NCBI GenBank assembly: GCA_019751875.1
Contig: JAIEMV010000001.1
Location: forward strand, 213,991-277,990
Direction of reading: 5' to 3'
Length of the DNA stretch: 64,000 nt
Source: Hyphomicrobium sp.
GTDB lineage: Bacteria > Pseudomonadota > Alphaproteobacteria > Rhizobiales > Hyphomicrobiaceae
The notes under the pieces are model-generated. The model made no database searches. It was not told the origin of the DNA and was given only the letters and a program-made list of their open reading frames with translations. The position numbers were made by a program, and so were the translations under genes. This document shows, in pieces, positions 2,973 through 24,231 of this stretch. Positions within the stretch are counted from its first letter, which is position 1, and each line of letters starts with the position of its first letter.

Positions 2973-4502
2973 ATGGAAATCCGGGCCGCAGAGATCACGT
3001 CGATCCTGAAGGATCAGATCAAGAATTTCGGCAAGGAGGCCCAGGTCTCCGAGATTGGACAGGTGCTGTCAGTGGGTGACGGTATCGCCCGCGTTTACGG
3101 GCTCGACAACGTCCAGGCCGGCGAAATGGTGGAATTCCCGGGCGGTCTGCGCGGCATGGCGCTCAACCTTGAGTCTGACAACGTCGGCGTCGTGATCTTC
3201 GGTGACGACCGCGGGATCAAAGAGGGCGACACCGTCAAGCGGACTGGCTCCATCGTGGACGTGCCGGTTGGCAAGGGACTGCTGGGCCGCGTTGTCGACG
3301 GTCTCGGCAATCCAATCGACGGCAAGGGCCCGATCAAGTCGGACGTGCGCATGCGAGTCGACGTGAAGGCCCCGGGTATCCTGCCGCGCAAGTCGGTGCA
3401 CGAGCCGATGGCGACCGGTCTCAAGGCCGTCGACGCGCTGATCCCGATCGGCCGCGGCCAGCGCGAGCTCATCATCGGTGACCGCCAGACCGGCAAGACC
3501 GCTGTTATTCTGGACACCTTCCTCAATCAGAAGCCCGCGAACGAAGGGACAGACGAAAGCGCAAAGCTCTATTGCGTCTACGTCGCCATTGGCCAGAAGC
3601 GCTCAACCGTCGCTCAGTTCGTGAAGGTGCTGGAAGAGCGCGGCGCGCTGCCATACTCGATCATCGTCGCTGCTACCGCTTCGGATCCGGCGCCGATGCA
3701 GTACCTTGCTCCGTTTACCGGCTGCACCATGGGCGAATACTTCCGCGATAACGGCATGCATGCCGTGATCGCGTACGACGACCTGTCGAAGCAGGCCGTC
3801 GCCTACCGTCAGATGTCACTGCTGCTCCGCCGTCCTCCGGGACGCGAAGCTTATCCTGGTGACGTTTTCTATCTTCACTCTCGACTCCTCGAGCGCGCGG
3901 CGAAGATGGGCGATGCGGCTGGCAAGGGTTCGCTGACGGCGCTGCCGGTCATCGAAACGCAGGCGAACGACGTCTCGGCCTACATTCCCACGAACGTGAT
4001 CTCCATCACCGACGGTCAGATCTTTCTCGAGACGGACCTGTTCTATCAGGGCATCCGTCCGGCCGTGAACGTCGGTTTGTCGGTGTCGCGCGTGGGTTCG
4101 TCGGCACAGACCAAGGCGATGAAGCAGGTTGCTGGCAAGATCAAGGGCGAGCTGGCGCAGTATCGCGAAATGGCAGCATTCGCGCAGTTCGGTTCGGATC
4201 TCGATGCGGCCACCCAGAAGATGCTCGCCCGTGGCGCGCGGCTCACGGAACTCCTGAAGCAGCCGCAGTTTTCTCCGCTGAAGATGGAAGAGCAAGTGGC
4301 GGTGATCTTCGCCGGTACACGCGGGTATCTCGACACTTTGCCGGTCAGCGCCGTCGGCAAGTTCGAGCAGGCGCTGCTCACCGCGTTGCGCGATGAGAAG
4401 TCGATCCTGGCATCGATCGGCGCGGAGAAGGCCTTGTCGGGTGAGACGGAGAAAAAGCTCGTCGGGTTCCTCGACAAGTTCTCGAAGAACTTCGTCGCCT
4501 AA
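2973..4502 (+). CDS. atpA: F1 ATP synthase alpha subunit
   Basis: This non-catalytic nucleotide-binding subunit alternates with beta in the F1 hexamer. The 509-residue protein is full length, starting [13 protein letters not shown]. The Walker A segment GDRQTGKT is at residues 169-176, and the catalytic-interface segment around [13 protein letters not shown] is present. The C-terminal helical domain runs to the end. A purine-rich ribosome site (AGAGGTCGAGG) precedes ATG 2973. It lies 138 bases after atpH and 30 bases before atpG. Confidence 0.98.
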
Positions 4503-17992: not shown

Positions 17993-18753
17993 CCGCGTGC
18001 AGTTGAATCCAGCATTTCGTCATCCATTGTGATTGCTTCGAGAAAACCTGTCAGATCGTCTGTGAAGTGGTGGACGTGCTCGGGTAGCGCGGTCCAGTTT
18101 CGCATGCTGCGTTGAATGGGATGGTCCACGTAGGTGGAATGGACCAGTACAGTACTCATGCCCAGCTTGTGCGGCACCTCTAAGTTTTGCGGCATGTCCT
18201 CGAACATCGCAGCCTCAATCGCGGCGACCCCGTGGTGGCGGATCATCGCGTCGAAAGCGGCGGCGGCGGGTTTGGGTTCATAGCCGCACGAGGCGATATC
18301 AGAGATTCCCTCGAAGAGATCCAATACACCGAGCTTGGCCGCGACGCGTTCGGCATGGGCGCGCGAGCCGTTCGTGAAGATGAGCTTGCGGCCGGGGAGA
18401 CGATCGATGGCGGTCCGCAGCGCTGGTGCTTCAGGTACAACCGAGAGATCGATGTCGTGAACATAGTCGAGGAATGGCTCGGGCAGCATCTTGTGGACAC
18501 GCATGAGCCCGGCGAGCGTCGTGCCGAACTGTCGGTAGTAGCTCTTTTGCAGATGGCGCGCATACTCGAATGGAACTCCGAGATGATTGGCGATGAATTC
18601 TCCCATGCGCTGGTCCACCTGAGCGAAGAGGTTGCACTCCGCAGGGTAAAGCGTGTTGTCGAGGTCAAAAATCCAGATACGGTTGCGTCCCAGAACTCGG
18701 GTCGGCCCCACGCGAGCAATCTGCGAAGTGCCGGATCTGTGGGGAGCGTTCAT
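17989..18753 (-). CDS. HAD-superfamily pyrimidine 5'-nucleotidase-like hydrolase
   Basis: The 254-residue protein has the HAD nucleophile motif [12 protein letters not shown] (D30/D32), the second motif [13 protein letters not shown], and the acidic third motif MFEDMPQNL. This arrangement with LYPAE matches the pyrimidine 5'-nucleotidase subgroup, which dephosphorylates UMP/CMP-like nucleotides. Its ATG overlaps the argB stop (ATGA), so it is co-translated with argB; this pairing is familiar in alphaproteobacteria, though I know of no direct metabolic link. Confidence 0.88.
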
Positions 18754-19706
18754 TCCGCCGCCTTTTTGATCTTCGGCTTACGGCGCCCAACGAGCGTACC
18801 GGCACCGTGATCGGTGAGGAGTTCGAGCAGTACGCAGTGCGGTACCTTGCCGTTGATGATTACCACGGCTTCGACACCCGCTTCGACCACTTCAATGCAG
18901 CCTTCGATCTTCGGTATCATGCCGCCGCTGATAGTGCCGTCGCGGATCAGATCTTGAGCCTGTTCGATGCTCAATTCCTCGATGAGCTTGCCATTCTTGT
19001 CGAGAACGCCTTCGACGTCGGTGAGCAGAAGTAGACGCTTCGCTTTCAGCCGGGCTGCGAGCGCGGATGCGAAGCTATCCGCGTTGACATTCAAAGTCTC
19101 GCCGTCGCGGGAAAGAGCGACCGGGGCAATGACCGGGATGAGGTCTGATTTCGAGATCACTTCCACGATGTGCGGGTTGACCTGCAGTGGATCGCCAACA
19201 AATCCGAGGTTGACCTTCCCAACGACACCGGTCTTCGGATCTGGCATTTCGGTGATCTTGCGAGCGATCATCAAATTGGCATCCTTCCCGCAGATGCCTA
19301 CGGCCTTTCCGCCCTCGCGGTTGATGGCGGTGACGATCTCTTTGTTTATGGCCCCAGCCAACACCATCTCTACGATCTCGACGGTCGGCTGATCGGTGAC
19401 GCGCAGGCCGTTCACAAATTCCGACTTGATGTCGTGCTTCTTGAGCATCTGTGCGATTTGCGGACCACCGCCATGCACGACGATAGGGTTTACGCCGGAC
19501 TGCTTCAGATAAACGATGTCTTGCGCAAACGCGGCTGCGAGCGCAGCGTCTCCCATCGCGTGGCCGCCAAACTTCACGACGACCGTCTGCTCGTCATAGC
19601 GCAACATATTGGGCAGGGCTTCCGCGAGGATGCGGGCCTGGACGTGCGCGGTAATTGGGCCGGTTTCGCCGGTGACGCCATTCGACGGCATATCGGGAGA
19701 CTTCAT
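18750..19706 (-). CDS. argB: Acetylglutamate kinase
   Basis: ArgB phosphorylates N-acetylglutamate in arginine synthesis. Core motifs are [12 protein letters not shown] near the N-terminus, [43 protein letters not shown] and [15 protein letters not shown] chose ATG 19706 ([14 protein letters not shown]), giving 318 residues; ATG 19709 or 19691 are alternatives because no strong ribosome site is evident. The frame continues 15 codons upstream without family sequence. The downstream HAD gene overlaps by four bases. Confidence 0.96.
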
Positions 19707-19995
19707 CATCTGATTGGGATAACCCTGGCAAAGGTTTGACGCGCTGATCACCTCCAGAGGTGAGATGGGCGGCGCCGGGAGGGTTATATCCGTTGTTGTC
19801 CTTGCCTCAACGGAATTCCCTCACAATCGGCTGTTATCAGGTCTGTTGAAAGGCTGAAAATCGGGGTGGTTGTGCTGATTGGCGGCTTGCTCGCCAGGGG
19901 CAGATCACGTTCTATCCCAACGTGTTGGCCACAGGGGCGCGGCTCGCGGAGAGCTGTGACGCGATGTTTTGCGGTCGGAGGCATGGTTCGAGCGG

Positions 19996-21699
19996 ATGAT
20001 TGCTGATGATCTCGGGCGCATTCCCATGTCGCAGCACCTGGCTGCGACGCTTGCGCGCGCCGCCAGCTACGCAGATGCCCAGCAGCATCCGGAAGTGACG
20101 CTGGAGCACTTGCTGCTGGCGCTCGCCGAGGATAGCGATGCGGCCGGCGTGTTGCGCTCGTCAAACGTCGATTTAGCCCGTCTAGCAGGAGAAGTGTCGA
20201 CCCATATCGGTCAGATCGACGCTCGTCGAGATTCCAACGGGCCTGGCCAGGTCCTTATTTCACACGATCTGAAAAGAATTCTCGAAGCGGCCGCCGCGGC
20301 GGCGCGCCAGGGGCGACGTGCGGAGATCAACGGCGCTATCGTGCTGGCCGCGATCGTAGGCGATGGAAAGAGCACAGCGGCACATTTGCTGCGCGCGCAG
20401 GGGCTGACCTTCGAGCAGGCGATCCGCGCGCTACAGCGCGGTGCGGCGGCACCGCCCCGGTCGGATCCGTCGGCTCAGCCGCCGCCGCACGTACCAGCCG
20501 GCGCTCAGCAAGGATCGACGGAAGATATTCTCGCGAACGCTCGAGAGCGAGTGCAGTCCCGGTCGGTTCAAGGGCAGCCCAATCAAGGACCAGCGGTTCA
20601 ACAGGGGACACCCTCCGTCGCGCAGCCGGCGCCGATGCCGCCTGCGCCTTTCCAGCAGCCCGCACCGCCGTACAACGAGCCGTCCTCTCCACCACGGCCT
20701 GAATTCCGGCCGGAAACTCGGCCCGACTATTCGCCTGAACCCCAACAACGCGAGCCTGTTCAATCGCCAATTGCACCTCAGTGGGAGCCGGCAAGCCAAA
20801 TGCCGCCGATGCCGCCTCGCGAGGTGCCGGTGACGCAGCCAACGGCGCGACCGGGACCGCCGCCCGGTGGGCCGGTCCAACAGCCGCCGCCATATCAGAT
20901 GCCGCCACAGCAGCGCACACAGCCACCGGGGCTGCCACCTGTACCGCGGCAAGGCGGGCCGGCTCAGGGTGGGGGAATGATGCCTCCGCAGCAAATGCCG
21001 CATGGCGGGCCGCCGCCATCGCTCGGGCAGCCGCAGGGGCGCGGACAGGCGCCTATGCCGCCACAGCAGCGGCCGCCACAGGGCGGGGGGCCGCCAGGGC
21101 CCGGTGGGCCGCCGCCGCAACAGCGTCAGCGTTCAGGTGCCCCGGGCAACGTCCGTGTCGCATCAGGTCAGCTTGTCGAAAATATTCCGCGCAAAATGCG
21201 CATCGGCGTTTCGATGGTCGTCGAAGCTCGCGTGGCCCGGTCGGAAGTGAAGGCCATTGCGGAAGGATTGCAGGGTGGCGGAGCGGTCTATCGTCACGAG
21301 GTGACCGTGACGAAGGCCATGTCGGTGCGGCTGCGGTCGCCGGATGGTGGTTTCTTCATTGAGACATCGTCGCCGGAGACGCAGTGGATCGAGAACGTGC
21401 TCGGCTTGATGGCCGATGATTTTGCGAGTTGGCGCTGGACGGTTACGCCGCGTGAGCGCGGCAAGCAGCGGCTTCAGTTGTTGATCTCGGCGCGCACCGT
21501 TGGCGCGGATGGGTTGACGGCCGAAACGGCTCTTCCTGATCAGATGATCGAGGTGAAGGTCAGCGTCAACTATGCAAAGACGGCCGCGCGCTGGGCGGGC
21601 TGGATGACGGCCGCCGTGGCGGGCGGTGTTTTGGCGCGCTTTGGCGAAGGGCTCTTCGAGCCGCTCGTTTCGCTGCTGCGAGGAAGTGGCGGCGGTTGA
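19996..21699 (+). CDS. ClpA-type N-domain protein with proline-rich linker and C-terminal membrane domain, function unknown
   Basis: No named full-length family is recognised. With the ATG at 19996 (MIADDLGRIPMSQ; alternative 20026) the product has about 567 residues. Residues 12-150 look like a double Clp_N repeat (HPEVTLEHLLLALAED..., INGAIVLAAIVGDGKSTAAHLLRAQG), closest by eye to the ClpA N-domain that binds ClpS. No AAA+ ATPase follows. Residues about 150-386 are Pro/Gln/Gly-rich. Residues 391-528 form a compact probably beta-rich domain (MRIGVSMVVEARVARSEV, GGFFIETSSPETQWIENVL). A hydrophobic segment near 532-550 could anchor it to the membrane. It sits alone on the plus strand between argB and engB. 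A link to Clp adaptor control is inference. Confidence 0.82.
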   Translation: MIADDLGRIPMSQHLAATLARAASYADAQQHPEVTLEHLLLALAEDSDAAGVLRSSNVDLARLAGEVSTHIGQIDARRDSNGPGQVLISHDLKRILEAAAAAARQGRRAEINGAIVLAAIVGDGKSTAAHLLRAQGLTFEQAIRALQRGAAAPPRSDPSAQPPPHVPAGAQQGSTEDILANARERVQSRSVQGQPNQGPAVQQGTPSVAQPAPMPPAPFQQPAPPYNEPSSPPRPEFRPETRPDYSPEPQQREPVQSPIAPQWEPASQMPPMPPREVPVTQPTARPGPPPGGPVQQPPPYQMPPQQRTQPPGLPPVPRQGGPAQGGGMMPPQQMPHGGPPPSLGQPQGRGQAPMPPQQRPPQGGGPPGPGGPPPQQRQRSGAPGNVRVASGQLVENIPRKMRIGVSMVVEARVARSEVKAIAEGLQGGGAVYRHEVTVTKAMSVRLRSPDGGFFIETSSPETQWIENVLGLMADDFASWRWTVTPRERGKQRLQLLISARTVGADGLTAETALPDQMIEVKVSVNYAKTAARWAGWMTAAVAGGVLARFGEGLFEPLVSLLRGSGGG

Positions 21700-21727: not shown

Positions 21728-22390
21728 CTAGGAGTGCTGGCGCGTGACGAGGGCCGCCTGAGCGCGCAGATCATTGATCCCTTCTCCGGTTTCGGACGAC
21801 GTGGCAATGATGAGCGGGTAGGCCGCGGTATGCTGGGCGAGCGTCGCCTGCGTGCGCTTGAAAAGAGCATCGAGAGCGGTCGGCTTGATCTTGTCGGATT
21901 TGGTCAGGACGGCTTGATAGGAGACTGCGGCCTCGTCGAGCAGCTTCATGATGTCGGCGTCGACTTTCTTGATGCCGTGGCGCGCATCGATGAGCAGAAA
22001 GACGCGTGCGAGACGCTGACGGCCAGCGAGATAGTTTTTGACCAACGTCGTCCAGGCTTCGACCTTGTCTTTCGGGGCTTCGGCGAAGCCGTAGCCTGGC
22101 ATGTCGACGAGAAAGGGCGCACCTGATTCCGGAACGAAGTAGTTCAGTTCCTGCGTGCGCCCCGGCGTGTTGGACGTGCGAGCAAGGCCATTCTGGCGGA
22201 CCAGCGCGTTGATCAGGCTGGATTTGCCGACATTGGATCGTCCGGCGAACGCAATCTCGACGGGTCCACCAGGCGGCAAATGCTCAAGGCCGACGACGCC
22301 TTTGACGAACGTCCATCGCTGCTCGAACAGCGCGTTACCGGCTGCGTAATCTTCGGTGGTGAATGCGAACGGATCGGCCGCGTCCGTCAT
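21728..22390 (-). CDS. engB: Ribosome biogenesis GTPase EngB (YihA/YsxC)
   Basis: EngB is an essential GTPase needed for 50S ribosomal subunit assembly. Using ATG 22390 ([10 protein letters not shown]), which overlaps the yidC stop as ATGA, the protein has 220 residues. G1 is GRSNVGKS (residues 50-57), G2 is in [16 protein letters not shown]3 is [11 protein letters not shown], and G4 is TKSDKI. The longer upstream frame reads through yidC and is not used. Confidence 0.96.
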
Positions 22391-24231
22391 CCCTTCGACT
22401 CGCTGCCCATCCCGAATAGCCTGAGGACTGGACCGAAGGTGCGGCGGACGTTTGCGCCGAGGTGGATCTCGGCTCCCTGCTGTTTTGTGATGTACCACTG
22501 CTGGATGATCGAAAGCGTGTTGTTCCAGGCCCAGTAGATCACGAGGCCTGCCGGGAACGTGGCGAGCAGGAAGGTGAACATCAGCGGCATCCAACTGAAA
22601 ATCTGCTGCTGGATGGGATCAGGCTGCGGCGGGTTCAGCTGCATCTGAATCCACATTGTAATGCCCATGATGATCGGCCACACGCCCACGAGCAGGAAAG
22701 CCGGAACGCCAAACGGAAGCAAACCGAAAAGATTGAAAATCGAGGTCGGGTCGGGCGCGGAGAGATCTTGGATCCAGCCGATGAACGGCGCATGGCGCAT
22801 GTCGATCGACGTGTAGAGAACTTTATAAAGCGCAAAAAACACGGGGATCTGGACCAGGATAGGCAAGCACCCGGCGGCCGGATTGATCTTTTCTTTCTGG
22901 TAGAGCTGCATGAGCTCTTGCTGCATACGCGATTTATCATCCTTGAAGCGCTCGCGCAGAGCTTCCATCTGCGGCTGCAGCTTCTTCATCTTCGCCATCG
23001 AAACGTAAGATTTATTCGCGAGCGGGTAGAAAAGAAGCTTGACGATCACAGTCAGCGCCAGGATGGCGAAGCCGAAGTTTCCGAGAATGCCGTAGAGCCA
23101 TGTCAACGCGTGGTTCATCGGCTTGGTCAGGAAGTAAAACCAACCCCAATCGATCATCAGATCGAACTTCTCAATCCCCAAGTCCTCGCCGTACTTCTCG
23201 ATCAGCGAAGCCTTCTTTGCGCCGGCGTAGAGGTTGGTCTTCACCGAAGCGACGCTGCCCGCCGGCACGACCATGGGCACGGATTCGAACTCGGCAAGGA
23301 ACATCGGGAGTTGCTTGGCATCCTTCGGCGCTTCCCCTTCAAGGTTGGCATTGTAGGCAACCTTCTGGTCGGGAATGATGGCGGAAGCCCAGTACTTGTC
23401 GGTGATGCCGAGCCATCCGCCGGTCTTGCCGTCGAAGCGCGCCGGGGGTTCAGTCGTTGCATTGTGGAAAGTAATTTCTTGCAGGCCCGCGTCTCCGGGA
23501 ACTCCCAAAAGACCTTCGTGCTGAATCCAGACCGAGGGTGTCTTGGGTGCGCCGAACCGAAACAGACGTGCAAACGGTTTCAGTGCCACATCGCTGGTGC
23601 TCGTGTTCTCGACCTCGTCGTTGATCGAGAACATGAAGTTCTCGTCAACCGAAACAATGCGGCGGAAGATGAGCCCCTCACCGTTGGCCCACTCGAGTGT
23701 GACCGGCGAGTCCGGCTTTAGAGGGCCCGGCGTTTTCGCCGTCCAGAGCGTTTCACTATCTGGGACCTTTACGGGTTTACCGGACGAGGCCCAACCCAGG
23801 CGAGCGAAGTAGCCGCCGACCTCTGATAGTGGAGAGAACAGCACAATGTTGGGGCTCTTCGGGTCGACCGTCTCATGGTAATTCACCAGCGAGAGGTCGT
23901 CGAAGGCAGCTCCCTTGAGGGCGATTGAGCCCCTGAGAGATGGCGTTTCGATCGCGATGCGTGGTGAAGCTGCAATGGCCTGCTCACGTGTGGCAGGCTT
24001 GGTAGCAGCGATCGCAGCGGCGGGCGCTTGTGCTCCCGATGTTGCCGACGGTGCAGCTGCGGTGGGGATTGTCGACGGCGCGGATTTGGTTGCGGCGTCC
24101 CGTGCTTGACGTGCCTTCTCCGCCTCCATCTGAGGTGTGGCAAAGAAATAGCTCCAGCCCAACAGCACCGCCATGGAGAGAACGATCGCGATCAGGACGT
24201 TGACCTGGTTGTCGGGCTGCTGGCTCTTCAT
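22387..24231 (-). CDS. yidC: Membrane protein insertase YidC
   Basis: YidC inserts and folds inner-membrane proteins, alone or with SecYEG, and is notably required for F0 subunit c. The ATG at 24231 ([19 protein letters not shown]) gives 614 residues. It has an N-terminal membrane anchor, an Ala/Pro-rich stretch, a large periplasmic beta domain, and the five-helix core ([64 protein letters not shown]). Sits in the rpmH-rnpA-yidC-engB operon, with 177 bases between it and rnpA. Confidence 0.97.

Follow-up and report, generated by a model that had tools for sequence, protein, structure and literature searches.

A conserved motorless ClpA-type N-domain protein of Hyphomicrobiaceae with a disordered linker, a predicted Ig-like domain and a probable tail anchor

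It was found that a 567-aa ORF, located in a 64,000-nucleotide stretch of Hyphomicrobium sp. DNA (the window), encodes a conserved protein in which a ClpA-type N-domain is followed by a long disordered linker with a conserved motif, a predicted Ig-like beta sandwich and a long C-terminal helix. Taken together, these features suggest a tail-anchored cytoplasmic scaffold or decoy that presents the ClpA-type N-domain and a second binding helix, a reading which is proposed tentatively and held with somewhat less than even confidence. The features were located as follows:

19996..21699, + strand: the whole ORF (567 aa, ATG start); the 61 named loci share the C-terminal domain, and 56 of them have it fused to Clp_N
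20029..20448, + strand: ClpA-type N-domain with two Clp_N repeats, residues 12-151 (Pfam, NCBIfam, AlphaFold2, Foldseek)
20449..21159, + strand: disordered Pro/Gln/Gly-rich linker, residues 152-388 (low AlphaFold2 confidence, variable spacing)
20515..20562, + strand: linker motif STEDILANARERVQSR, 16 residues (174-189), with a predicted helix at 175-188 (leave-one-out PSSM, PopZ comparison, AlphaFold2)
21160..21564, + strand: predicted all-beta Ig-like domain without an accepted family, residues 389-523 (AlphaFold2, Foldseek)
21571..21684, + strand: C-terminal helix, residues 526-563, probable tail anchor (AlphaFold2; hydropathy weak in the window protein)
18750..19751, - strand: argB, usual neighbour (TIGR00761, 256.6 bits, above cut-off)
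21728..22417, - strand: engB, ribosome biogenesis GTPase YsxC/EngB, usual neighbour (TIGR03598, 207.1 bits, above cut-off)

An in-frame TTG upstream at 19969 was a possible alternative start of the ORF, and the engB frame could alternatively span 21728..22594, from an upstream TTG. The AlphaFold2 (AF2) model of the full protein, built with 56 relatives, showed high confidence in the N-domain and low confidence in the linker, where a single helix stood isolated; a beta domain and one long C-terminal helix followed. Clp_N was the sole family matched by Pfam (45.2 bits, cut-off 20.7, E 1.1e-11, in two stretches). No AAA+ family was detected by the Pfam scan, and the NCBIfam Clp models matched through their N-terminal parts only. 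The absence of an AAA+ module and the Pro/Gln/Gly linker of about 235 residues, both described earlier in a sequence-only reading, were thus borne out, the linker being Pro-rich and ~237 residues long.

The N-domain was compared with the individual Clp families. The best NCBIfam match was the ClpA model TIGR02639 (52.1 bits, E 3.1e-14) and a second ClpA model scored 46.8 bits, when the ClpB, ClpV, ClpK and ClpG models reached 33.0, 28.5, 23.7 and 14.3 bits, respectively; all of these scores came from N-terminal model parts and were under the whole-protein cut-offs. The PDB sequence search gave 42-45 bits for ClpA chains and about 20-22 bits for ClpC or ClpB chains. The best ClpA N-domain scored higher than the best ClpB N-domain in 27 of the 28 family members chosen for the test, L163 being the exception. 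The 10-residue AF2 means within the domain were mostly 92-98, and the first six rows of the Foldseek search with the model were E. coli ClpA entries, including the ClpS complexes 1mg9, 1lzw and 1r6o at an rmsd of 1.2-1.4 Å. The deviations from the ClpA N-domain chains 1mg9, 1lzw, 1r6o and 1k6k were 1.2-1.6 Å, with TM scores (by target) of 0.89-0.93. It was concluded that the N-domain is of the ClpA type by profile, sequence and fold, in agreement with the double ClpA-like repeat noticed from the letters alone, and the HMM comparison placed ClpA ahead of ClpB. The origin of the family N-domain was not resolved by the N-domain tree, in the second run of which the ClpA group had a support of 24, the family together with ClpA had a support of 28, and the family did not form one clade; this run left out L228, a short ClpB fragment present in the first run. 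The Clp_N fold began at residue 12-13 in the AF2 model. Because only about 11 residues precede it, no signal or membrane segment would fit before the fold, and the head of the modeled protein is likely cytoplasmic.

A ClpA-type head could make the protein a membrane-tethered ClpS sequestrator, which would bind ClpS, lower the amount of free ClpS available to ClpA and tune N-degron degradation. This explanation was considered unlikely; the ClpS-ClpA entries 1mg9, 1lzw and 1r6o among the top fold matches agree with it, as does the single ClpS gene of the genome, found beside clpA. The contacts of E. coli ClpA to ClpS are listed in the excerpted text of PMC12493166 as Glu23, Glu28, Thr81 and Arg86, and the ClpA of the same genome kept all four residues. 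Among the 57 family members, position 28 was occupied by Glu in 50 and by Asp in 6, position 86 by Arg in 49, and position 81 by Ser in 48 and by Thr in none. However, Glu23 was absent in 57 of 57 and replaced by Arg (14), Pro (10), Ala (8) and others, Arg or Lys being found in 17. The ClpB of the same genome had Gln, Asp, Ala and Arg at positions 23, 28, 81 and 86, respectively. Arg86 is therefore not specific for ClpS, and two of the positions (Asp at 28 and Arg at 86 in ClpB) were perhaps kept for the fold. Judged by these residues, three positions of the ClpS interface would fit or nearly fit and one would not, with at least Arg86 being non-specific. Of the ClpS interface residues, whose lack was named earlier as a refutation of the adaptor idea, Glu28 and Arg86 were mostly kept, Thr81 was mostly replaced by Ser, and Glu23 was lost. 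The ClpS-adaptor idea seems weakened but not killed, and the capture of ClpS by the N-domain would be possible.

The linker had 10-residue AF2 means of 43-60 outside the short helix, and the spacing between the Clp_N and C-terminal domain matches varied from 139 to 532 residues in the 56 relatives. The conserved helix within the linker is a new finding of this analysis. One copy of the 16-residue motif was recovered in 54 of 57 linkers by an iterated leave-one-out PSSM, scoring above the best of 1140 shuffled linkers, and the motif was missing or decayed in L042, L048 and L083. A strict regular expression caught it in only 20 of 56 linkers, hence the PSSM was used instead. In the AF2 model the motif formed the isolated helix 175-188 with a mean pLDDT of 60-68. 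The motif STEDILANARERVQSR resembles helix 1 of PopZ. The genome has two PopZ-like genes, and this helix reads IEEILASVRRII in one of them. The likeness of the sequences may also have arisen by convergence.

The resemblance was assayed in both directions. The linker-derived PSSM (52 copies, 36 unique) scored 26 of 26 PopZ proteins above all 495 background ORFs, the 26 being a selected set, namely those of the 31 loci examined in which the helix-1 core had been found beforehand by pattern. The original background of 499 ORFs held four family fragments, and one ORF of it outscored all 26 PopZ proteins; the fragments were left out in the 495-ORF repeat of both tests. Scored with the PopZ-derived PSSM, the linker sites of 19 of the 57 members surpassed every background ORF, the window protein among them, and those of 28 surpassed the 99th percentile of the background. 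The other 38 members did not exceed all background, and the window protein passed by a marginal score only, 14.4 when the highest background value was 13.6. Closer PopZ-like copies, each above all 499 background ORFs, were found in the divergent members L086, L209, L211 and L169; the divergent L163, L207, L210, L212, L213 and L215 did not exceed the background. At the position aligned with PopZ Arg19, the 54 motif members had Glu in 38 (including the window protein), Ala in 5, Gln in 4, Ser, Asn and Arg in 2 each, and Gly in 1. The Ile located two residues ahead of Arg19 in PopZ was replaced by Ala in 52 of the 54.

A polar hub component was the other explanation of comparable, low probability. 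The linker helix would bind PopZ clients or, at a second site, take the place of the PopZ helix, and ClpA ligands would be brought there by the head. Such a role is consistent with the PSSM results in both directions and with the closer copies in the four divergent members. In the passages available from the PopZ literature, helix 1 is described as binding clients (PMC9926476), and the N-terminal domain is described as binding at least eleven clients, the ClpXP adaptors CpdR and RcdA binding PopZ directly (PMC11519897). However, the PopZ variant E12K/R19E/S22P is described, in the excerpt of PMC5182065, with inactivated client sites, and Glu is the residue that most motif members carry at the position aligned with Arg19. 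The Ala in place of Ile, the marginal score of the window protein, the 38 members not above all background, the six divergent members at background level and the three linkers without the motif count against the hub as well. Furthermore, the genomes G013, G019, G030, G043 and G052 (completeness 84-99%) carry the gene, and DUF2497 was not found in them.

The two PopZ-like (DUF2497) genes of the genome lie in tandem on contig C11 (L095:1782-2969 and 3130-4236) and both have the helix-1 motif; several relatives also have two DUF2497 matches. The genome also encodes a protein of PF07323, which we take to be RcdA.

The C-terminal domain, which had been singled out from the letters as the part most likely to be undescribed, indeed gave no accepted match in the libraries searched. 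Pfam matched nothing in it, NCBIfam matched only below the cut-off (11.6 of the 45 bits required), and the search of PDB sequences brought no meaningful similarity, hence a known family was rejected as its explanation. The C-terminal part alone, modeled by AF2 with 62 sequences, gave a beta sandwich of 10-11 predicted strands followed by a helix, with a mean pLDDT of 77. Foldseek returned generic Ig-like folds only, with a best E of 1.0e-3 among the matches listed and TM scores by query of 0.48 or less among the 50 listed. According to these models, residues 389-523 are predicted to form an Ig-like beta sandwich, which is what the proposed structure prediction of this domain yielded.

A widened profile (A3) detected the beta domain in other architectures as well. 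Proteins of 306 and 300 aa with N- and C-terminal hydrophobic segments were encoded at L090 and L091, both of which were themselves part of the profile, and further architectures were found at L202, L204-L206 and L208. A 761-aa protein with a lipoprotein-like start (L203:1417-3699) combined the beta-domain match (weak, E 6.3e-6) with a following C14 caspase domain; the matches of L203, L204 and L205 were all weak, with E of about 1e-5 to 1e-6. Since relatives occur in other architectures, the beta domain is probably a wider module, nameless in the libraries searched, and its relatives in other membrane proteins make it of interest beyond the present family.

These very different partners, one of them (by the weak match) a caspase, are what an explanation as a peptide- or aggregate-sensing membrane protein would draw on. 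In that case the head would bind exposed peptides independently of the Clp machinery and the Ig-like domain would signal or multimerise. We regarded it as quite improbable, because the head is specifically ClpA-like and no catalytic or signalling domain was detected in the protein by Pfam or NCBIfam.

Two further arrangements of the beta domain were recorded. One genome has two beta-domain proteins, a Clp_N fusion (L207:1623-4145) and a 317-aa protein (L206:811-1761). In the latter, basic residues come after a hydrophobic segment at the N-terminus, an arrangement that would leave its beta domain in the cytoplasm. At L164 (2571-3371 and 3605-4593), a beta-domain gene that reaches a contig end is followed by a separate Clp_N protein of 266 aa, which may represent a paralogue or else the fusion in split form.

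The C-terminal membrane segment described by the sequence-only reading was retained in part. The best C-terminal 19-residue hydropathy of the window protein was 1.07, lower than that of its Clp_N stretch (1.31). Over 57 members the median was 1.45, and 16 of them reached 1.6 or more. The long helix looked like a true membrane segment in L086 (2.31) and, by eye, in L163 and L169. Membrane anchoring by the C-terminal helix is considered likely, though the signal is weak in the window protein.

Searching with a C-terminal-domain profile yielded 61 named loci, labeled as Hyphomicrobium, Filomicrobium, Hyphomicrobiaceae, Hyphomicrobiales or Rhizobiales, and Alphaproteobacteria or Proteobacteria; H. 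facile DSM 1565 is among the carriers (L071). Clp_N and the C-terminal domain shared one frame in 56 of them. Only the C-terminal part was present in the other five, where the frames ran into the contig end (L035, L051, L052 and L085) or closed 15 bases from it (L067). Of 297 genomes drawn evenly from the order, 45 had the beta domain at E 0.001 or better, two of them (G595 and G481) weakly and in other proteins; the architecture of the rest was partly checked. Among 398 genomes of the phylum it was detected in 7 at E 0.01, one being a short match with a stop.

The order argB(-), gene(+), engB(-) was present in 50 of the 61 loci, and both neighbours in the window scored above their cut-offs, in line with the earlier description of a gene on the opposite strand between them. 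Six loci were cut on one side and agreed on the other (L035, L038, L048, L051, L052 and L085). Another gene took the place of argB in L045 and L047, and engB was absent from L067, L080 and L082. Since the visible flank of these five carries another gene, the gene or its neighbour has moved there. The four divergent carriers examined for the locus differed: L156 and L169 kept the place, though with other genes beside engB in L169, and the gene of L163 and L164 was elsewhere. Genomes lacking the gene served as the outgroup, and 14 of their stretches downstream of engB were compared. The frame ends of argB and engB were within about 31 bases in five of them (L158, L165, L166, L167 and L175) and within 266 bases in one (L173), argB was 1.1-2.2 kb away in three (L157, L159 and L160), and no argB was present in the stretch in five (L161, L168, L170, L172 and L174). 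The word "inserted", used for the gene earlier, is apt relative to part of the outgroup but not within the clade, where the place is mostly ancestral. The gene is inferred to have entered between argB and engB once or nearly once, and to have been inherited since then with a few moves. The gene is an old, mostly vertically inherited one of Hyphomicrobiaceae and nearby families, and from the fusion in 56 and both neighbours in 50 of the 61 loci it follows that the combination was kept by selection.

Several other origins were rejected. A chance ORF was ruled out by the conservation across 61 named loci, and a recent mobile insertion by the two usual neighbours in 50 of them. A defence gene was rejected, as PADLOC gave no match for the window protein. 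A phage origin was likewise rejected, PHROG having given one strong match, annotated as an ATP-dependent protease and obtained through the N-domain, and a second at E 0.086. A degenerate, functionless ClpA remnant would explain the lost ATPase but is already contradicted by conservation, namely by the 67% mean column identity in the C-terminal domain (62 sequences), the fusion and the usual locus, and, with an intact clpA elsewhere in the same genome, its probability is negligible.

It was proposed that the protein acts as a scaffold or decoy in the following way. The C-terminal helix would fix it at the inner membrane, where the Ig-like domain would sit, and on its long disordered linker the motorless N-domain would be free to sweep the nearby cytoplasm. 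The N-domain would bind a ligand normal for the ClpA N-domain, presumably ClpS or a ClpA substrate or regulator. Since there is no ATPase, binding would either withhold the ligand from ClpAP or concentrate it at one place for hand-over, so that the protein may catch or deliver ClpA helpers at the membrane. The conserved linker helix would provide another site of binding, whose partner is probably similar to those recruited by PopZ helix 1. In favour of this reading are the ClpA-like head without AAA+, the conserved fusion and usual locus, the linker helix with its PopZ likeness, and the presence of ClpS, two PopZ-like genes and RcdA in the genome; the sponge role of ClpC2 offers a precedent. 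The loss of Glu23 in 57 of 57 and the weak hydropathy of the helix would count against the scaffold or decoy, as would the lack of Clp-system genes among the labeled neighbours, the labels covering homologues of eight window proteins only.

A more specific form of the proposal, in which the protein is a membrane or polar hub joining two proteolysis logics in a single chain, was considered rather unlikely. The motorless head would receive ClpS or clients of ClpA, and the PopZ-type helix would recognise partners of the polar hub. If true, a dedicated tethered decoy would localise or gate N-degron proteolysis. A tethered ClpA head conserved across a bacterial family would offer a direct handle on the site of action of ClpAP in the cell and on the sharing of its adaptor. 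Judging from the linker motif, recognition helices of the PopZ type may be in use outside PopZ as well.

The protein was also compared with known systems. The N-domain of E. coli ClpA (1k6k, 1r6o, 1mg9 and 1lzw) has the same two-repeat helical fold and was the best match by profile, sequence and fold. Unlike the window protein, ClpA contains two AAA+ modules; the long tether, the beta domain and the C-terminal helix are additions, and Glu23 of the ClpS interface is absent in the family. PopZ has a short helix of similar pattern beside a Pro-rich disordered region. However, the PopZ helix is N-terminal, when that of the family is internal and mostly has Glu in place of Arg19, and PopZ contains a DUF2497 domain, of which the Pfam scan found no match in the window protein. 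The protein belongs to the motorless Clp_N proteins, a kind already known from ClpC2 and ClpT. Plant ClpT proteins are small soluble partners of the ClpPR core. They share the Clp_N fold without an ATPase (4y0c was among the Foldseek matches listed), but are not known to have the tether or the anchor, the latter being probable in the window protein. We know of no ATPase, Pro-rich tether, beta domain or anchor in mycobacterial ClpC2. In the excerpted text of PMC10030653, ClpC2 is likewise a partial homologue of a Clp unfoldase, namely ClpC1, acts as a molecular sponge, has an N-terminal dimerising domain and represses its own promoter. ClpC2 is thus of the ClpC type with N-terminal dimerisation, whereas Clp_N of the window protein starts at residue 12-13 with no extra N-terminal domain. 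ClpN repeats fused to vWA in FtsH ternary conflict systems, as described in the part of PMC7159879 available, similarly place Clp_N outside an Hsp100 protein; those fusions belong to a multi-gene conflict system, and the window protein had no vWA or MoxR part by Pfam. No record of the tether, helix, beta domain and anchor in combination, and no title on the protein, appeared among the literature matches listed. The genome itself encodes a second motorless Clp_N-like protein of 669 aa on contig C19 (L005:1030-3036), in which Clp_N scored 19.0 bits, just under the cut-off of 20.7, and a long region after it looked coiled-coil-like by eye.
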